Source: Saprospiraceae bacterium (lineage in GTDB: Bacteria > Bacteroidota > Bacteroidia > Chitinophagales > Saprospiraceae). Taken from it: a stretch of DNA of 64,000 nt. Under the pieces are notes generated by a model that saw nothing but the letters and a program-made list of their open reading frames with translations, did not search any database and had not been told where the DNA came from. Where the stretch lies: positions 1 to 64,000 of the forward strand of contig JAHDBJ010000017.1 in NCBI GenBank assembly GCA_020630435.1, given 5' to 3'. The position numbers and the translations under genes were made by a program. Below, piece after piece: positions 49,785-57,213 of this stretch (its first letter is position 1; each line of letters opens with the position of its first letter).

Positions 49785-50549
49785 ATGAATACTTTTTACT
49801 TAAAAACAATCTTTTTATTATTAGCCTTAGTTTTTTTCCTAGGGTGTACTGGAGACTACGATTATAGGAAAACACATAATATAAAACATGACCACAGTCA
49901 TCATCATGATCACCATCCTGATCATCATCACCATGAATCAGAAACGGGGCAGAATACTAATATTTCTAAAAGTGAGTTAGAACTATATCATGACAAAGAA
50001 AGGGAGCTGTGGCAAAAACCTAATCTTGTTTTAAAAATGCTTGGCGATATTTCAAATAAAGTAGTCGCTGAAATTGGATCTGCTTCGGGTTATTTTACCT
50101 TTCGAATTGCTCAAAAAGCAAAAAAAACCATTGGCTGTGATATTGATCCTGATGCCATTGATTTCATGGAAAAAGAAAAACGGAAATACCCCGAAGGTTT
50201 TAGAAAAAAAATAGAAACTAGGCTTGCAGAAATTGACGATCCCAAGTTGAAAGATAAAGAGGTTGATGTTGTTGTTCTTGTAAATACATATATTTACATT
50301 GGTAAGAATGCAGAAAGCCGGATTGAATATTTTAATCGATTAAAACGAACTTTTAAAAATGGCGGGATGATATTGATTGTGGACTATAAAAAGAAAAACC
50401 TCCCCAAAAATTCCTTGGCACCTGACATTAGAGTGCGCCTAGCTCTTGGAGAAGTCGAGGAAGAACTTAAAACAGCAGGATATAAAAATATTACAACCAA
50501 CGATTCTTCATTGAGTTACCAATATGTTGTAAAAGCCTATGTGGATTAA
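49785..50549 (+). CDS. Lipoprotein class I methyltransferase-like protein with His-rich segment
   Basis: This 254-residue protein has a lipoprotein signal (lipobox FLGC, Cys21), a His-rich stretch with 12 His in residues 31-50, then a Rossmann methyltransferase domain from about residue 75. Motif I reads EIGSASG (96-102), departing from the usual DxGxGxG; motif II region is IGCDIDPDAIDF, and MILIVDYKK follows. The His-rich part could bind Zn, Ni or Cu. A lipid-anchored, exported SAM methyltransferase would have no SAM supply outside the cytoplasm, so the role is puzzling. Its stop overlaps the start of a paralogue by 11 bases. Confidence 0.82.
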   Translation: MNTFYLKTIFLLLALVFFLGCTGDYDYRKTHNIKHDHSHHHDHHPDHHHHESETGQNTNISKSELELYHDKERELWQKPNLVLKMLGDISNKVVAEIGSASGYFTFRIAQKAKKTIGCDIDPDAIDFMEKEKRKYPEGFRKKIETRLAEIDDPKLKDKEVDVVVLVNTYIYIGKNAESRIEYFNRLKRTFKNGGMILIVDYKKKNLPKNSLAPDIRVRLALGEVEEELKTAGYKNITTNDSSLSYQYVVKAYVD

Positions 50550-51204
50550 ATTTAATTATATTGTCCTTCTCTCTGTTATCATTCCTAGTTTATTGGCCTG
50601 TAATCACCGTACACAAAATACTAAGACCGATCAGGAAGAAACTTTTGATAAGTTGGTACAACGATTTGAAAATACAGACAGGCTTAAATGGCAAAAGCCC
50701 TTAGAAGTAATTGAATTACTTGGCGATTTAAAAGGTAAAACTGTTGCAGATATTGGAGCTGGAACAGGTTATTTCACTTTTAGATTAGCCACCAAAGCCG
50801 CTAAAGTACTTGCAATTGATATTGATGAGCGTTTTATTCATTTTATTGAAAATACAAAAACAACTTTTCCTAAATTAATTCAAGATCGCATTGAAACTAG
50901 GCTCGTTAATGAAAATGATCCTAAACTTAAAAAAGAAGAAGTTGATGCTGTATTAGTCGTCAATACTTATAAAGATATTCAGGATAGAATATCTTATTTT
51001 GAAAAAATTCGAAAAGAAAACTTAAAACAAAATGGGCGAATAATGATTGTAGATTATAAAAAGGGAAATAAACTAAATCTACGAGAGGAAGAAATTGCGC
51101 TATCTCCAACAACCGTAAAAAAAGAACTCCGTGAAGCTGGTTATAAAACTATTCAAATCAACGAAGGTTTGCTGGAGCATCAGTATATTATCATAGCAAA
51201 ATAA
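50539..51204 (+). CDS. Lipoprotein class I SAM methyltransferase, paralogue of the preceding gene
   Basis: This 221-residue protein has a lipoprotein signal (SLLAC, Cys21) and a methyltransferase domain with canonical motif I DIGAGTG (71-77), LAIDIDERFIHFIE as motif II region and IMIVDYKKG. Shared blocks with the upstream gene (WQKP, LGDL/I, GYFTFR, IETRL, DPKLK, VVNTY, VDYKK, AGYK) show tandem duplication; this copy lacks the His-rich segment and keeps the intact SAM loop. Overlap of 11 bases implies coupled translation. Substrate unknown. Confidence 0.85.
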   Translation: MWIKFNYIVLLSVIIPSLLACNHRTQNTKTDQEETFDKLVQRFENTDRLKWQKPLEVIELLGDLKGKTVADIGAGTGYFTFRLATKAAKVLAIDIDERFIHFIENTKTTFPKLIQDRIETRLVNENDPKLKKEEVDAVLVVNTYKDIQDRISYFEKIRKENLKQNGRIMIVDYKKGNKLNLREEEIALSPTTVKKELREAGYKTIQINEGLLEHQYIIIAK

Positions 51205-52192: not shown

Positions 52193-54715
52193 TTAACCTT
52201 TTCTAATTTCTTCTTTCCCTGTAATCATCAACATCAAATTCGTTGCTTCCATCCCAAGTATCTCTTGAAGGTTATTTTGAATAATCTTCAACTTGGTCTT
52301 TTGCACCTCATCCATTGCTACTTCAGTATCATCTTTTAATATTTTAAAGACTAAGCCTTTTTCTTCTTTACTTTTAGAACCTGTAATAATAGTAGTAGAA
52401 AGTTTTTCAATAATCGTTACTATCTTCTCTTCTAGCGCTTCATCAGATGTAGACTTAGCCAATTCTAATTCTTTGAGTGCAGTCTCCTTAGCAGCTTTTT
52501 CTTCTGCTTCTTTTTTAAAGATAGCCTTATATTTCTCAATTTTAAATGCTAAATCATTCTGTTTGGTCTTTAATTCAGGATTGGTTTGAGTTGCCTTAAT
52601 ATAACATTCAGCAGCTAGTTTGGGTTTGCCCATTTCATAATAGGCGACAGCCATATCATAGTGCGTAAACGGATGATCTTCCTGTAATTGAGCTACTTTT
52701 TTTAGGTGTTTTAAAGCTTTCTTATTTTTACCAAAATGTTCATACAATAAAACACCATACTGGTAGTGTGCGTCAGGATTATCTTCATCTTGTCCTATCG
52801 CAAATTTGAAATAATCTGCTGCTTTTTTCTTATACCCTTTAAAATTATGACTAAGTAACATTCCTAGTTTAAAAGCTAATCCTGGTGTATTACTATTTAA
52901 TTTAAATACATTTTCAAAATGTGTTTTAGCAAGGAGAAAATCGCCTTGAGTCTCTGCTAATTCAGCTAATAAAAGATGAGCATCTACATAAGTATTATCT
53001 TTATTAAGAATTTTTTTCAATGCTTTTCTTCCTTCTTTTATATTATCTAGATGTGTAATATGGAAAACCGCTAATTGATATTGGGCATCTAGATTAGATG
53101 GTTCTTTTTCTGTTAAATACTCTAACCCCTCTAATGCTGCAATATATCGCTCTTCTTCAATCAACTTAGAAATTTCTGTTGTACTCAATAACCTTACAAC
53201 AGATTCTGGTTCATCTTGTTTTACCTCTTTAATAACTTGAACAATAGACTCTTTCTCCACTTGCTCCTCCTCCACTACTTCCGAAGATTCTGTTTTTTCA
53301 ATATTTTCTACTACCTCTTCTGTTGTTTCCTCTATTATTTCTTTTTCCTCATTCTCGTGTTTATTGACTATTTTTTCTGCCATCAATTCAAGTTCTTCTT
53401 CCATTTCTTCTTTTTCGATAATTGGGTCAATTCTATTCGCTAGCTTTTCTTCTGCTTTATCAACGTCTTTATCTTCTTCAAATAAGGAACGTAAAATCTC
53501 TATTGAAGATTTCTCTGAAAAATCCTCTTCTTTTTGTTCAGGAGCAATGGCATTTGTTTGAATTTCTTCAGATTTTTCTTGTACATCATTAACGATTGAT
53601 TCCTCCTCTATTACTTCTTCTACTGTTTGAGGCACAATACCTGCTTCATCCAATGTCAACTCTTCTTTTTTAAGTTCAATATCTTCTACGACTTCTTCAG
53701 TTATTCCTTTCTCTTTCTTTGCACGAGCAAGTTTTTCTAGAATAGTTTCAGGTTTTTTGGGCGTATCTGCTATCACTTTTTCCTCGATTGATTTATCGTC
53801 ATCGTTATTTTTTGAACGCACCAACTTTTCTAATAGCGTTTCAGGTTTTTTAGACTCTTCAGGTTTTACCACCTCCTCAATGACCTTCTTTGATTCTATC
53901 TCTTCCTTTACAATCGGTGGAGGTGGAGGTGGAACTTTATCCTCAATACTTTTCTGAATATTTGTTAATATTTTATCACTACCATTTACACTTAAAACAG
54001 GCTCAACGCTTACTGGTTCAGCTTGGTATTCCAATGTCGTTGATTTTTCTTCTACAATCTTATTACGTATTGGTTGATTTGATTTAGCAGAGACATCTTC
54101 TATGTTATAATTGACGATTGCTAAATTTTTGTAACTGCTGTGTAATTGTTCTTTATTTAATAATTGGAAAAGTAACTTAAATTTGTTTGCACGTAATTTT
54201 TTAAATTCATAATATTCTTTAGACTTTAAAAGTCTTAGAAATTCGCCTATCTCAGACGAAATTGAACGAACATTATTAATTTTTTGATTAAAGGCATCCT
54301 CTTTTTCATAATCATTTTCTCTTTTCTGTCTTCGTAATTCCAAATATATATCTTGCCAATGATTCATGTAGTGAATGACATTACTCACTCGTTGAAATTT
54401 TGTAGGTACATTTTCGACAGTTCCCGATTCATTAGTTTTGATTCCATCAATAACTATAGTATTTACACGGCTTTTCAACTTTGCATCTTGCAAGAATAAT
54501 ATTGCATTATACATACAATCTTCAGAGCGTAGGAAATTATCACTTATTAATAAAAAAATAGGTGCAGAAGAATTTATAATTGCTTCTTGGTGAACATTCC
54601 TTTCCTCCAAATCTCTATCATCCAACACAAAATTAATGGTTGAACGTTGAATATCTTCTGCAAATTGTTTTGCAAATTGTTCGTTTTCTTTACAGTACAC
54701 TAAAAAAGCTTGCAT
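52193..54715 (-). CDS. TIR-like domain protein with long acidic linker and TPR repeats
   Basis: This 840-residue protein has an N-terminal TIR-like fold (residues 1-110: FLVYCKENEQFAKQFAEDI, NFVLDDRDL, PIFLLISDNFLRSEDCMYNAI). At the position of the catalytic Glu of NADase TIRs (S..FL.S..C..E) it has Asn70, so NAD cleavage is unlikely. A long Glu/Lys/Val-rich, probably disordered linker with repeated KPE(T)(I/L)LEKL(A/V)R units spans about 215-510. At least five TPRs follow (about 510-725), then a coiled-coil tail. No signal peptide. It probably acts as a cytoplasmic scaffold. It is last in a leftward cluster with a thioredoxin lipoprotein and a Tudor-like protein. Confidence 0.75.
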   Translation of the reverse strand: MQAFLVYCKENEQFAKQFAEDIQRSTINFVLDDRDLEERNVHQEAIINSSAPIFLLISDNFLRSEDCMYNAILFLQDAKLKSRVNTIVIDGIKTNESGTVENVPTKFQRVSNVIHYMNHWQDIYLELRRQKRENDYEKEDAFNQKINNVRSISSEIGEFLRLLKSKEYYEFKKLRANKFKLLFQLLNKEQLHSSYKNLAIVNYNIEDVSAKSNQPIRNKIVEEKSTTLEYQAEPVSVEPVLSVNGSDKILTNIQKSIEDKVPPPPPPIVKEEIESKKVIEEVVKPEESKKPETLLEKLVRSKNNDDDKSIEEKVIADTPKKPETILEKLARAKKEKGITEEVVEDIELKKEELTLDEAGIVPQTVEEVIEEESIVNDVQEKSEEIQTNAIAPEQKEEDFSEKSSIEILRSLFEEDKDVDKAEEKLANRIDPIIEKEEMEEELELMAEKIVNKHENEEKEIIEETTEEVVENIEKTESSEVVEEEQVEKESIVQVIKEVKQDEPESVVRLLSTTEISKLIEEERYIAALEGLEYLTEKEPSNLDAQYQLAVFHITHLDNIKEGRKALKKILNKDNTYVDAHLLLAELAETQGDFLLAKTHFENVFKLNSNTPGLAFKLGMLLSHNFKGYKKKAADYFKFAIGQDEDNPDAHYQYGVLLYEHFGKNKKALKHLKKVAQLQEDHPFTHYDMAVAYYEMGKPKLAAECYIKATQTNPELKTKQNDLAFKIEKYKAIFKKEAEEKAAKETALKELELAKSTSDEALEEKIVTIIEKLSTTIITGSKSKEEKGLVFKILKDDTEVAMDEVQKTKLKIIQNNLQEILGMEATNLMLMITGKEEIRKG

Positions 54716-54731
54716 AGTATTTTTTTATAAA

Positions 54732-56051
54732 TTATTCATTTAATAATGCTCCCACAAAATCATTAAATTCTTTAATAAACTTGGGATATTCACTTGTAGC
54801 AGGTCCCGCAAATCCTGTATGAATCTTCCTAACCTTATCATTTTTATCCAAAAAAATCATGGTCGGATATGATAAAATATGATTCAACATAGGAAGCGTT
54901 TTGGCAGCTTCATCTTTTTTGCTGCTACCGGCCCATAAGACTTCATAATCTATTCCAAATCGCTTCTTAAATTTGCTTATAGCACTAAATGCTTTTTCCT
55001 TATGTTTGTGTTTTTCGTATGCTAATGCAATGACAGCAAGATCTTTATTTTTATTTTTACTCAAATAATCTGCCAAAAATTGGGTTTCATCCGCACAATT
55101 AGGGCACCAAGTTCCAATAATTTGAACTATTTTAATTTTATCTTTGTATTTTTCATCTTCTAAAGAAACTCTTTTACCATCGGAATTTTCAAAAGAAAAT
55201 GTCACTTTATCATAACCTTCTTTCAAGTATGTAAGCGTATTAGGATCAGTCAATGTTACACTTGAATTTCGTTTAGCTATCCAAATATCTTTATAATGAC
55301 TTCCTGAACGAAACGTTCCAACAAGTGTAGAATCGGGGAGCATTTTAGCTTCAAACAAAAAAGCGTGAGAACCATCAAAAGTTGATAAATACATTTTATC
55401 TGCCTGTACAGTTCCTTCTAGAAAACGATAATCTCCTGTTTCTGTAAGAAACGTTCCTGTCAAATAATTACCCTCCTGTTGGAATTCGCCAATAGCACTG
55501 TATTCCTCGCCTTTTTCGCCAAATGTTACCTCCCATTTCCCTGCTACATTTACAGGTTCTTTTTTTAACGTTGTAAATCGATGATTTTTACCTTGCCAAG
55601 CCACAAAAGGGATAGTATAATTTTTTTTGGTCTTAACGACCCACTCTCCTTCTATGACATCTTCTTCATATAATGCTCTAATATAAGAATCATAATGCGG
55701 AAATTCAATTCTTATCGTATCATCTCCATTAACTCTATTATGACCATATACGATATCGTCCACTCGAATGCGCTCTTCACCATTAATAATTTCAATATGA
55801 AATTTATCTTTAGTATCATACACTAATTCAAATGTAAACGGAAGTTCGCCATCTGTGACCTCCTCAAATTTAATTTCCTCATTAGGAGGTTTAGCATCTG
55901 TATTGAGCGGGCGATTGGGTTTACCATCAAGTTTTAATACTGCTCTATATACTCCTGGGGCAAGTACAGCATAAGGTTCATTCATAACCAAACAGCCTGA
56001 CATAAAAGTCATCCATGTTGTTAGTACAATAAGGATTGTTATTTTGTTCAT
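54732..56051 (-). CDS. TlpA-like thioredoxin-fold lipoprotein
   Basis: This 439-residue protein has a lipoprotein signal (FMSGC, Cys about 20), a beta-rich N-terminal and middle part like the DUF4369-type region in Bacteroidota thiol oxidoreductases, and a C-terminal TlpA/ResA-like thioredoxin domain (about 290-435) with the active site GTWCPNCADE. It should reduce or isomerise disulfides in the periplasm. It lies 16 bases after the Tudor-like gene and 16 bases before the TIR-like gene, so the three are cotranscribed. Confidence 0.9.
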   Translation of the reverse strand: MNKITILIVLTTWMTFMSGCLVMNEPYAVLAPGVYRAVLKLDGKPNRPLNTDAKPPNEEIKFEEVTDGELPFTFELVYDTKDKFHIEIINGEERIRVDDIVYGHNRVNGDDTIRIEFPHYDSYIRALYEEDVIEGEWVVKTKKNYTIPFVAWQGKNHRFTTLKKEPVNVAGKWEVTFGEKGEEYSAIGEFQQEGNYLTGTFLTETGDYRFLEGTVQADKMYLSTFDGSHAFLFEAKMLPDSTLVGTFRSGSHYKDIWIAKRNSSVTLTDPNTLTYLKEGYDKVTFSFENSDGKRVSLEDEKYKDKIKIVQIIGTWCPNCADETQFLADYLSKNKNKDLAVIALAYEKHKHKEKAFSAISKFKKRFGIDYEVLWAGSSKKDEAAKTLPMLNHILSYPTMIFLDKNDKVRKIHTGFAGPATSEYPKFIKEFNDFVGALLNE

Positions 56052-56067
56052 TTATTATAATTGTCGA

Positions 56068-56604
56068 TTACCTTGATTTTTCTCCCACAAAAGAATCTTC
56101 TTTATACTTAAACAATACATTAAATGTCGTTAAGCTACCATAGATACGTGTAATATATTGTTGTAAGTTGACTTTTTCCTCATCTGTTAATTTGCTACTA
56201 TTTATTCTTTGTTCCATTACTCGCAATCTATCTCTAACCATCACAACTTTATGAAAGAAGGTTTCAATGGGTATTTCCTTAGGTTTCAAACTTTCATCAG
56301 CTGGCTTTAATATCATAGTTCCGTTTTCCCATTTTTGTCCAAGATCTACTTTTGCTTCGATGCCATTATAGGTCTGCAAAATTTTTATTAAAGACTTTTC
56401 AGCTGCCGTAAAAGATACGCTATTGGTGGGTTCTATCCTTTCTATCACCTCCCATTTTTCATACGTCTTCCCCACATCTTTTATTCCATACGTTATAAAA
56501 CAAACTTGATAAGCCGCAACATTTACTTTTATAACTACTCCATCGCCAAAGGCGGGATGCCTAACTCTGGAGCCTACTCCCAGTATAGTAGTATTTTCAT
56601 CCAT
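56068..56604 (-). CDS. Small protein with N-terminal Tudor-like/CarD-like beta domain
   Basis: This 178-residue protein is not recognised as a named family. Residues 5-60 (VGSRVRHPAFGDGVVIKV...CFITYGIKDVGKTY) resemble the small Tudor-like beta barrel at the end of UvrD/PcrA helicases (VRHPKFGEGVV), a domain that binds RNA polymerase there. The rest is helical (about 70-165) without known motifs. No signal peptide. It opens a tight three-gene unit with the thioredoxin and TIR-like genes. Confidence 0.65.
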   Translation of the reverse strand: MDENTTILGVGSRVRHPAFGDGVVIKVNVAAYQVCFITYGIKDVGKTYEKWEVIERIEPTNSVSFTAAEKSLIKILQTYNGIEAKVDLGQKWENGTMILKPADESLKPKEIPIETFFHKVVMVRDRLRVMEQRINSSKLTDEEKVNLQQYITRIYGSLTTFNVLFKYKEDSFVGEKSR

Positions 56605-56685
56605 TTTACTTATATATTTTTTAAAATAAATTATTGAAATAAGTTAAGCAAAAAATATGCCTAACTCCAAATCCAAAATTCATAT

Positions 56686-57213
56686 TTAAATTAGTATCAC
56701 AAAAATATAACCCAATAAAAACAGTCCTAGCAAAACAATTATTACATATAGCCAAGAAACTCCCCCTTTTTCCCGTAAAGCAGCATAATATTCTTGTTGC
56801 CCATACCCTTTTTCCCTCATTTTATATATTTCTTTTTCTACATATTGTAAATACAATCGGTTTCCCAAAAATCCAACAGCCACACTTGTAGTTATTGTAA
56901 TTATACGATCGATAATCAGGTATACATCTCCTGATATGTCCATTAGCATCTCAAAAACTACATCTTGTAATACCCCTATTCCTAAAATTATTAAACAAAA
57001 AAAGATAGCTATTTTAATCATCTTTCTGAATAACATCCAACCAAATCCAAATAAAAATGCTCCAATGTTAAAAGAGAATAACTTTCCTTCTTTATATGCT
57101 GACCATTGTTTAATGTAATATTCAGAGGATGAACCAATAAAGGCTTCTAACTCTTCAACTCTAATATCTCCTGTAACATCAAAACGTAAATCATCAAGTA
57201 TATCATTTTCCAT
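56686..57213 (-). CDS. DUF2628 family membrane protein
   Basis: This 175-residue protein has the DUF2628 core YYIKQWSAYKEGKLFSFNIGAFLFGFGWMLFRKM (residues 33-66 region), followed by helices at about 66-85, 95-118 and 155-174. The family is widespread and without known function; some members are fused to other signalling domains. It lies 81 bases upstream of the Tudor-like gene on the same strand and may be the first gene of that cluster. Confidence 0.82.
   Translation of the reverse strand: MENDILDDLRFDVTGDIRVEELEAFIGSSSEYYIKQWSAYKEGKLFSFNIGAFLFGFGWMLFRKMIKIAIFFCLIILGIGVLQDVVFEMLMDISGDVYLIIDRIITITTSVAVGFLGNRLYLQYVEKEIYKMREKGYGQQEYYAALREKGGVSWLYVIIVLLGLFLLGYIFVILI

Follow-up and report, generated by a model that had tools for sequence, protein, structure and literature searches.

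In the stretch of DNA analysed here (positions 1 to 64,000 of the forward strand of contig JAHDBJ010000017.1, assembly GCA_020630435.1 of a Saprospiraceae bacterium; the whole 64,000 nucleotides are hereafter called the window), four open reading frames on the minus strand, separated by intergenic gaps of 16, 16 and 81 bases, encode from 52,193 to 57,213 a TIR/TPR protein, an exported redoxin lipoprotein (RED), a small Tudor domain protein (TUD) and a DUF2628 protein. We read this locus tentatively, with a probability of roughly 0.4, as the partly decayed copy of a Saprospiraceae cluster of the order (symporter)-TUD-RED-TIR-TPR-SDR, a metabolic or redox operon in which the TIR-TPR part would organise a short-chain dehydrogenase (SDR). 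The four genes, their spacing and their domains had been proposed in the original prediction and hold up. Beyond that prediction, the TIR/TPR protein appears to be what is left of a TIR-TPR-dehydrogenase fusion.

The dehydrogenase in relatives and its probable remnant in the window

The protein of the relatives has the architecture TIR-acidic linker-TPR-SDR, its C-terminal part being a short-chain dehydrogenase of NADP(H) type. TIR proteins are present in 72 of 120 Saprospiraceae genomes including the window, of which 68 can be judged once genomes G022, G008, G110 and G010, where the contig ends before the SDR, are left out. An SDR match lies within the same open reading frame in 64 of the 68, a count that includes locus L185, in which a contig end cuts within the SDR, and L225 with its degenerate SDR, while the SDR is the next gene in two more (L243, L249). 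The two proteins lacking it are the window protein and the divergent, 352-amino-acid protein of L336 in G101. Among the 42 genomes that possess TUD and RED without TIR, 39 after leaving out G049, G083 and G068 at contig ends, the SDR directly follows RED in 31 as judged by eye; it does not directly follow RED in G004, G041, G088, G112, G090, G060, G054 and G069, in which places elsewhere in the genome were not searched. In the rooted RED tree, with 44 of 88 inner branches open, TIR carriers stand near the base and the SDR-only rows are nested, which fits an ancestral TIR-SDR fusion and repeated loss of the TIR part.

As judged by its conserved residues, the active site of the SDR is intact in the relatives: in 101 SDRs with more than 230 bits, three duplicate loci included, the three glycines, the serine and the NADP-type Arg32 are kept in all 101, the tyrosine and the lysine in 100 each. 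The closest solved relatives include the YdfG-type 3asu, the sulfoacetaldehyde reductase 6ixj and YMR226C 3rku (4e-64 to 1e-47). Similar as it is to the YdfG-type SDR, the relatives' enzyme differs by a score below the cut-off and by its fusion behind TIR-TPR, and in the window there is at most a remnant.

The window protein (52,193-54,715, minus strand, 840 amino acids) probably ends in a truncated, degenerate piece of this dehydrogenase (52,196-52,396, residues 774-840), at the place where the SDR continues in relatives. A gap-free alignment pairs residues 774-840 with the SDR start of G102, a genome of the same genus, at 9 identities in 67 positions; in this fixed register, taken from the prior alignment to G102, the score was reached by none of 20000 shuffles and none of 33932 unrelated 67-mers. 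A tblastn search with the SDR of L186 arrives at the same place (E 0.011). The glycine motif TGxxxGIG is degraded, and YxxxK is missing along with the remainder of the enzyme; the signature of an active classical SDR (TGxxxGxG, Ser, YxxxK) is found neither here nor in L225. The stop codon lies 3 bases from a convergent glycosyltransferase-9 gene, and a search of the window's genome elsewhere gave no close SDR homologue, the best match having 35% identity against a family median of 63%. By these comparisons the TIR arm survives in the window genome, most of the dehydrogenase is gone and a working SDR is absent. As TIR and TPR remain recognisable in an intact 840-amino-acid frame, a retained partner-binding role is suggested. 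L225 (4657-7098, minus strand) encodes a second TIR-TPR protein whose fused SDR has less than 230 bits and no YxxxK motif, so that the enzyme part would have decayed at least twice.

Gene order in Saprospiraceae

Conservation of the gene order, which the original prediction had put forward as a check, is borne out in the family sample of 120 genomes from 112 genera, where the TIR region occurs in 72 genomes (67 of the 112 genera), TUD in 103, with full-length matches 59-76% identical, RED in 116 and DUF2628 in seven. With adjacency defined as same strand and at most 700 bases apart, TUD and RED are adjacent in 72 of the 100 genomes that have both, apart on one contig in five and on different contigs in 23; the corresponding numbers for RED and TIR are 59, three and ten of 72. 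TUD, RED and TIR/TPR are, judged by their gene order, a conserved unit in Saprospiraceae that is grouped beyond chance, whereas DUF2628, by its presence in just seven of the 120 genomes, is a neighbour and was rejected as a member. The proposed co-transcription of all four genes stands in part: it is likely for the 16-base-spaced TUD, RED and TIR/TPR genes because their order is retained in many relatives.

Upstream of the unit, 41 of 87 loci have a same-strand GltP/DctA-like symporter, 30 of them within 401 bases; it scores below both the GltP and the DctA cut-offs. The window genome has one symporter, unlinked and 69% identical. The 87 loci are 79 of 80 family regions, seven of the nine loci L102-L110 and the window, with the duplicates L103, L106 and L206 dropped and 34 later-fetched regions excluded. 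Recurrent neighbours were listed by cluster; the family-library search, and with it any recognition of defence genes among them, was confined to the symporter and one secreted protein.

The same counts bear on whether the locus is simply a set of co-regulated housekeeping genes that share no biochemistry, with the TIR-TPR-SDR fusion as the only functional unit. This we consider rather unlikely, since 72 and 59 genomes from a sample of 112 genera retain the order and TUD-RED-SDR is often retained where the TIR part is absent, even though TUD and RED are unlinked in many lineages, the products belong to mixed compartments and seven TIR-SDR loci lie away from RED and TUD.

The TIR domain

Residues 1-190 of the window protein (54,146-54,715, minus strand) adopt a TIR fold in the AlphaFold2 (AF2) model (pLDDT 83, pTM 0.77, from five sequences), which matches 3ozi with a Foldseek value of 3.1e-4 and a VIA Z score of 11.5 (root mean square deviation, rmsd, 3.5 over 156 residues). 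The best PDB matches of the sequence profile are adaptor TIRs, MyD88 (9e-6) and TRAM (6e-4). Pfam TIR_2 is matched at E≤0.01 by 27 of 54 proteins; the entire window protein reaches 2.6e-5 and 25.1 bits and the domain alone 27.8, just under the cut-off of 28. Between the TIR domain and the TPR repeats (52,574-53,164, residues 518-714; Pfam TPR_19, 5e-15 in the entire protein, TPR_1 and TPR_16) extends a Glu/Lys-rich linker (53,171-54,073, residues about 215-515) with 73 Glu and 37 Lys per 300 residues.

In bacteria, most TIR domains are interpreted as defence enzymes that cleave NAD. In the column that we take to be the position of the catalytic glutamate, the third residue after the cysteine of S-x-x-[FY]-L-x-S-x-x-C, Glu is present in two of 65 Saprospiraceae TIRs, two duplicate pairs included (L103=L198, L106=L235), and the window has Asn70 (54,506-54,508). 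The window TIR therefore does not classify as an NADase by this column, in agreement with the scaffold type of TIR that had been proposed. Outside the family, a search of 198 genomes of the class gave five genomes outside Saprospiraceae with a match (best 1.3e-12). Seven places with non-family TIRs were found, and the five proteins compared, which do not include those of G417 and G434:C69, all have the glutamate; by eye they are dynamin-like, LRR-Roc and another protein. Two of them carry the TIR on a GTPase/dynamin-like protein (L319:1334-4006 and L320:5006-7780) and two are LRR-Roc-like with a C-terminal TIR (L321:2256-5504 and L322:5497-8844), the catalytic Glu being retained in each.

The TIR fold is shared with bacterial TIR NADases and defence TIRs (Cat1, Z 10.9; SPARTA TIR-APAZ, Z 10.4; TIR-STING, Z 9.1), from which the window domain and most of its relatives differ by the missing catalytic Glu, by having no recognised defence partner and by their conserved locus. 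The adaptors MyD88, TRAM and TIRAP are non-enzymatic. Their likeness to the window system, with MyD88 and TRAM as best profile matches, consists in a non-enzymatic TIR on a multidomain protein; the window system differs in being bacterial and in carrying TPRs and, in relatives, a dehydrogenase.

Against this background a TIR-based anti-phage system, with the TPRs as phage sensor and the TIR producing or breaking down a signal derived from NAD, appears quite improbable. The genuine TIR fold, the glutamate in the window's two nearest relatives and the non-family TIRs on dynamin-like and LRR-Roc proteins, which are presumably signalling- or defence-like, speak in its favour. It is however difficult to reconcile with a catalytic Glu in two of 65 TIRs and Asn in the window, with a TIR that is present in 72 of 120 genomes and in 67 of the 112 genera and mostly located next to RED, with fusion to a dehydrogenase with an intact active site and with the symporter as a recurrent neighbour. 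PADLOC 2023 moreover gave no match for the TIR protein or RED and, for the small proteins, only DpdF (E 0.014) and CARF_2M (E 0.079). The defence role considered in the original prediction is thus not supported, given the PADLOC result, the mostly absent glutamate and the recurrent symporter, and the cluster looks metabolic rather than defensive.

The RED lipoprotein

RED (54,732-56,051, minus strand, 439 amino acids) consists of an N-terminal region of unknown fold and a C-terminal redoxin domain (Pfam Redoxin, 3.3e-11) with the CxxC motif CPNC (55,095-55,106, residues 316-319). Its lipobox, judged from the conserved Cys20 (55,992-55,994), has the cysteine in all 80 rows of the alignment; four rows are without the CPNC part, and 75 of the 76 others have both cysteines. 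The redoxin domain is common to ResA/TlpA-type thiol-disulfide oxidoreductases, and the ResA model matches RED with 7e-11, below its cut-off; RED differs by the long N-terminal region, the CPNC motif and its lipoprotein nature. The thioredoxin domain is missing from the RED copies of L198, L228, L343 and L344, which have 260-280 amino acids; those of L343 and L344 are not followed by an SDR either.

Among 198 genomes of the class, 116 have a RED match at E≤0.001; by the rows listed 90 of the 116 are below 1e-49, two being family members, and most of the 90 cover residues 65 onward. In 14 class loci examined, RED stands apart from TUD and TIR. Six of its neighbours in class loci were tested, of which five are aldehyde dehydrogenases and one is an RNase E/G; three of the five, the only ones scanned further, score as L-piperidine-6-carboxylate dehydrogenase. 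The loci outside Saprospiraceae with RED beside or near an aldehyde dehydrogenase are L306, L311, L314, L315 and L317.

An envelope redox or stress unit with RED as its core, TUD as regulator and TIR-TPR-SDR supplying or sensing reducing power would account for RED occurring more widely than any other member (in 116 of 120 family genomes) with its lipobox and CPNC retained. We regard it as unlikely nonetheless: the thioredoxin domain is absent in the four copies named above, so that disulfide chemistry would be dispensable, and the 14 class loci have RED away from TUD and TIR.

TUD: a Tudor domain joined to an unnamed C-terminal domain

TUD (56,068-56,604, minus strand, 178 amino acids) combines a UvrD/PcrA-type Tudor domain (56,440-56,592, residues 5-55) with a conserved C-terminal domain (56,071-56,358, residues 83-178). 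Pfam PcrA_UvrD_tudor is matched with 0.003 and 17.8 bits, under the cut-off of 23.9. The AF2 model (pLDDT 77, pTM 0.38) superimposes its Tudor domain on 7egs_B with Z 8.1 and rmsd 1.6 over 50 residues, the profile matches 7egt with E 9e-4, and the fold matches mainly cover residues 3-56, not the C-terminal domain. PcrA mutants in H681, W684, K712 and L714 show these residues to be needed for RNA-polymerase binding (PMC5397179). In 44 Tudor rows the equivalents are H16 in 44, F/Y19 in 39, K/R42 in 35 and V/I/L/F44 in 44, by a residue mapping of our own from the aligned ranges in which W684 is mostly F/Y. With both the fold and the residues of the UvrD/PcrA-type RNA-polymerase-interaction domain, the Tudor domain of TUD is by comparison of the RNA-polymerase-binding type, as had been proposed for the small protein. 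With the C-terminal Tudor domains of UvrD/PcrA (5dma, 6yi2, 7egs) it has in common the fold and the equivalents of those binding residues reported in PMC5397179; TUD differs in having no helicase and in being joined to the unnamed domain. To CarD there is a structural similarity (4l5g, Z 6.6); Pfam, read up to E≤1, gave no CarD model.

The C-terminal domain is strongly conserved, as the 52-row TUD alignment has 19 invariant columns and all fall within it; eight of the rows are without Tudor, hence Tudor columns could not be listed as invariant. In the proteins scanned it had no Pfam or NCBIfam match. The domain follows Tudor in Bacteroidota, Verrucomicrobiota and one Nitrospiraceae record. In the Myxococcota proteins examined it follows a region that contains Cys, and in a phylum-level search, which also caught UvrD C-termini, it apparently stands alone in further genomes. 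In the Myxococcota-type loci L139, L149, L158, L161 and L165 a CxxC...C region precedes the domain and replaces Tudor. A record named Comamonas sp. KCTC 72670 (L151) has a Myxococcus-like TUD domain and is possibly mislabelled or contaminated. Within the stretches of the 71 TUD loci outside Saprospiraceae (L111-L181) there is no RED or TIR/TPR match.

Transcription signals and neighbouring genes

A Bacteroidota-type promoter, by the consensus that we assume for this phylum, is matched ahead of TUD by TTTG-N23-TATTTTTG on the minus strand (56,734-56,700), inside the 3' end of the DUF2628 gene and 95 bases before TUD. The match is weak, as the window holds seven against 5.7 expected by chance; it fits a three-gene unit without DUF2628. 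A simple scan listed no minus-strand terminator around it, and a scan for sigma-70 promoters and terminators gave no more matches than in shuffles. The DUF2628 protein itself (56,686-57,213, minus strand, 175 amino acids; Pfam DUF2628, 8e-9) is a neighbour outside the conserved unit.

At 49,785-51,204 on the plus strand two tandem SAM-methyltransferase-like proteins, 42% identical to each other, have by eye lipoprotein-like N-termini, and the first contains a His-rich stretch. An exported methyltransferase fold of this kind is unusual.

Proposed function and implications

With respect to the function of the cluster, we infer that the operon acts on a small acid, amino acid or aldehyde and on its redox state. 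The symporter would import the substrate and the NADP(H)-type SDR would interconvert a hydroxy acid and its (semi)aldehyde, while the TIR, mostly without the NAD-cleaving residue, would form with the TPRs an arm for docking or self-assembly by which the enzyme is positioned. TUD would bind RNA polymerase via its Tudor domain and may tune transcription, and RED would act as an exported disulfide oxidoreductase lipoprotein. As the window genome keeps the arm alone, its protein could at most dock to or regulate partners. In the open-access literature searched no description of a TIR-SDR/TPR fusion or of a Saprospiraceae TIR was found, in line with the undescribed system that had been proposed.

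Several observations weigh against this reading of a metabolic operon. With respect to the enzyme, the SDRs of the two relatives scanned score 254.5 and 245.2 bits, under the cut-off of 411 of the YdfG equivalog NF007829; the identity of the window remnant to the SDR is low (9 of 67), and its HMM (hidden Markov model) test is weak, with five of 999 shuffles scoring higher. With respect to the arm, the two Glu-bearing TIRs of the family belong to the nearest relatives of the window, L184 and L185, the latter being of the same genus and the sister of the window in the RED tree. This counts against a dead TIR in the window lineage and keeps an NADase activity conceivable there. With respect to the unit, TUD is not beside RED in 28 of 100 genomes, some at contig ends, TIR-SDR has no RED or TUD nearby within the stretch examined in seven of 87 loci, and TUD was not found in the same-genus genome G102, which is 64% complete. 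TUD and RED are also far wider than the unit and occur elsewhere in other contexts. A single physical complex is unlikely, given an exported RED and partners (SDR, TIR-TPR, TUD) that appear to be cytosolic.

A broader claim, which we consider rather doubtful, is that the cluster represents a use of TIR outside immunity: with its NAD-cleaving residue lost in most of the family, the domain would be the non-catalytic assembly arm of a metabolic dehydrogenase, and the same operon would encode TUD as a new class of small RNA-polymerase-binding protein, the C-terminal domain of which recurs in Bacteroidota, Verrucomicrobiota, Myxococcota and one Nitrospiraceae genome. If true, the joining of a scaffold TIR, mostly without its catalytic residue, to an intact dehydrogenase across many genera would amount to a TIR use in bacterial metabolism and would caution against labelling every TIR protein as defence, and TUD would be a testable candidate for an RNA-polymerase-associated factor across several phyla.

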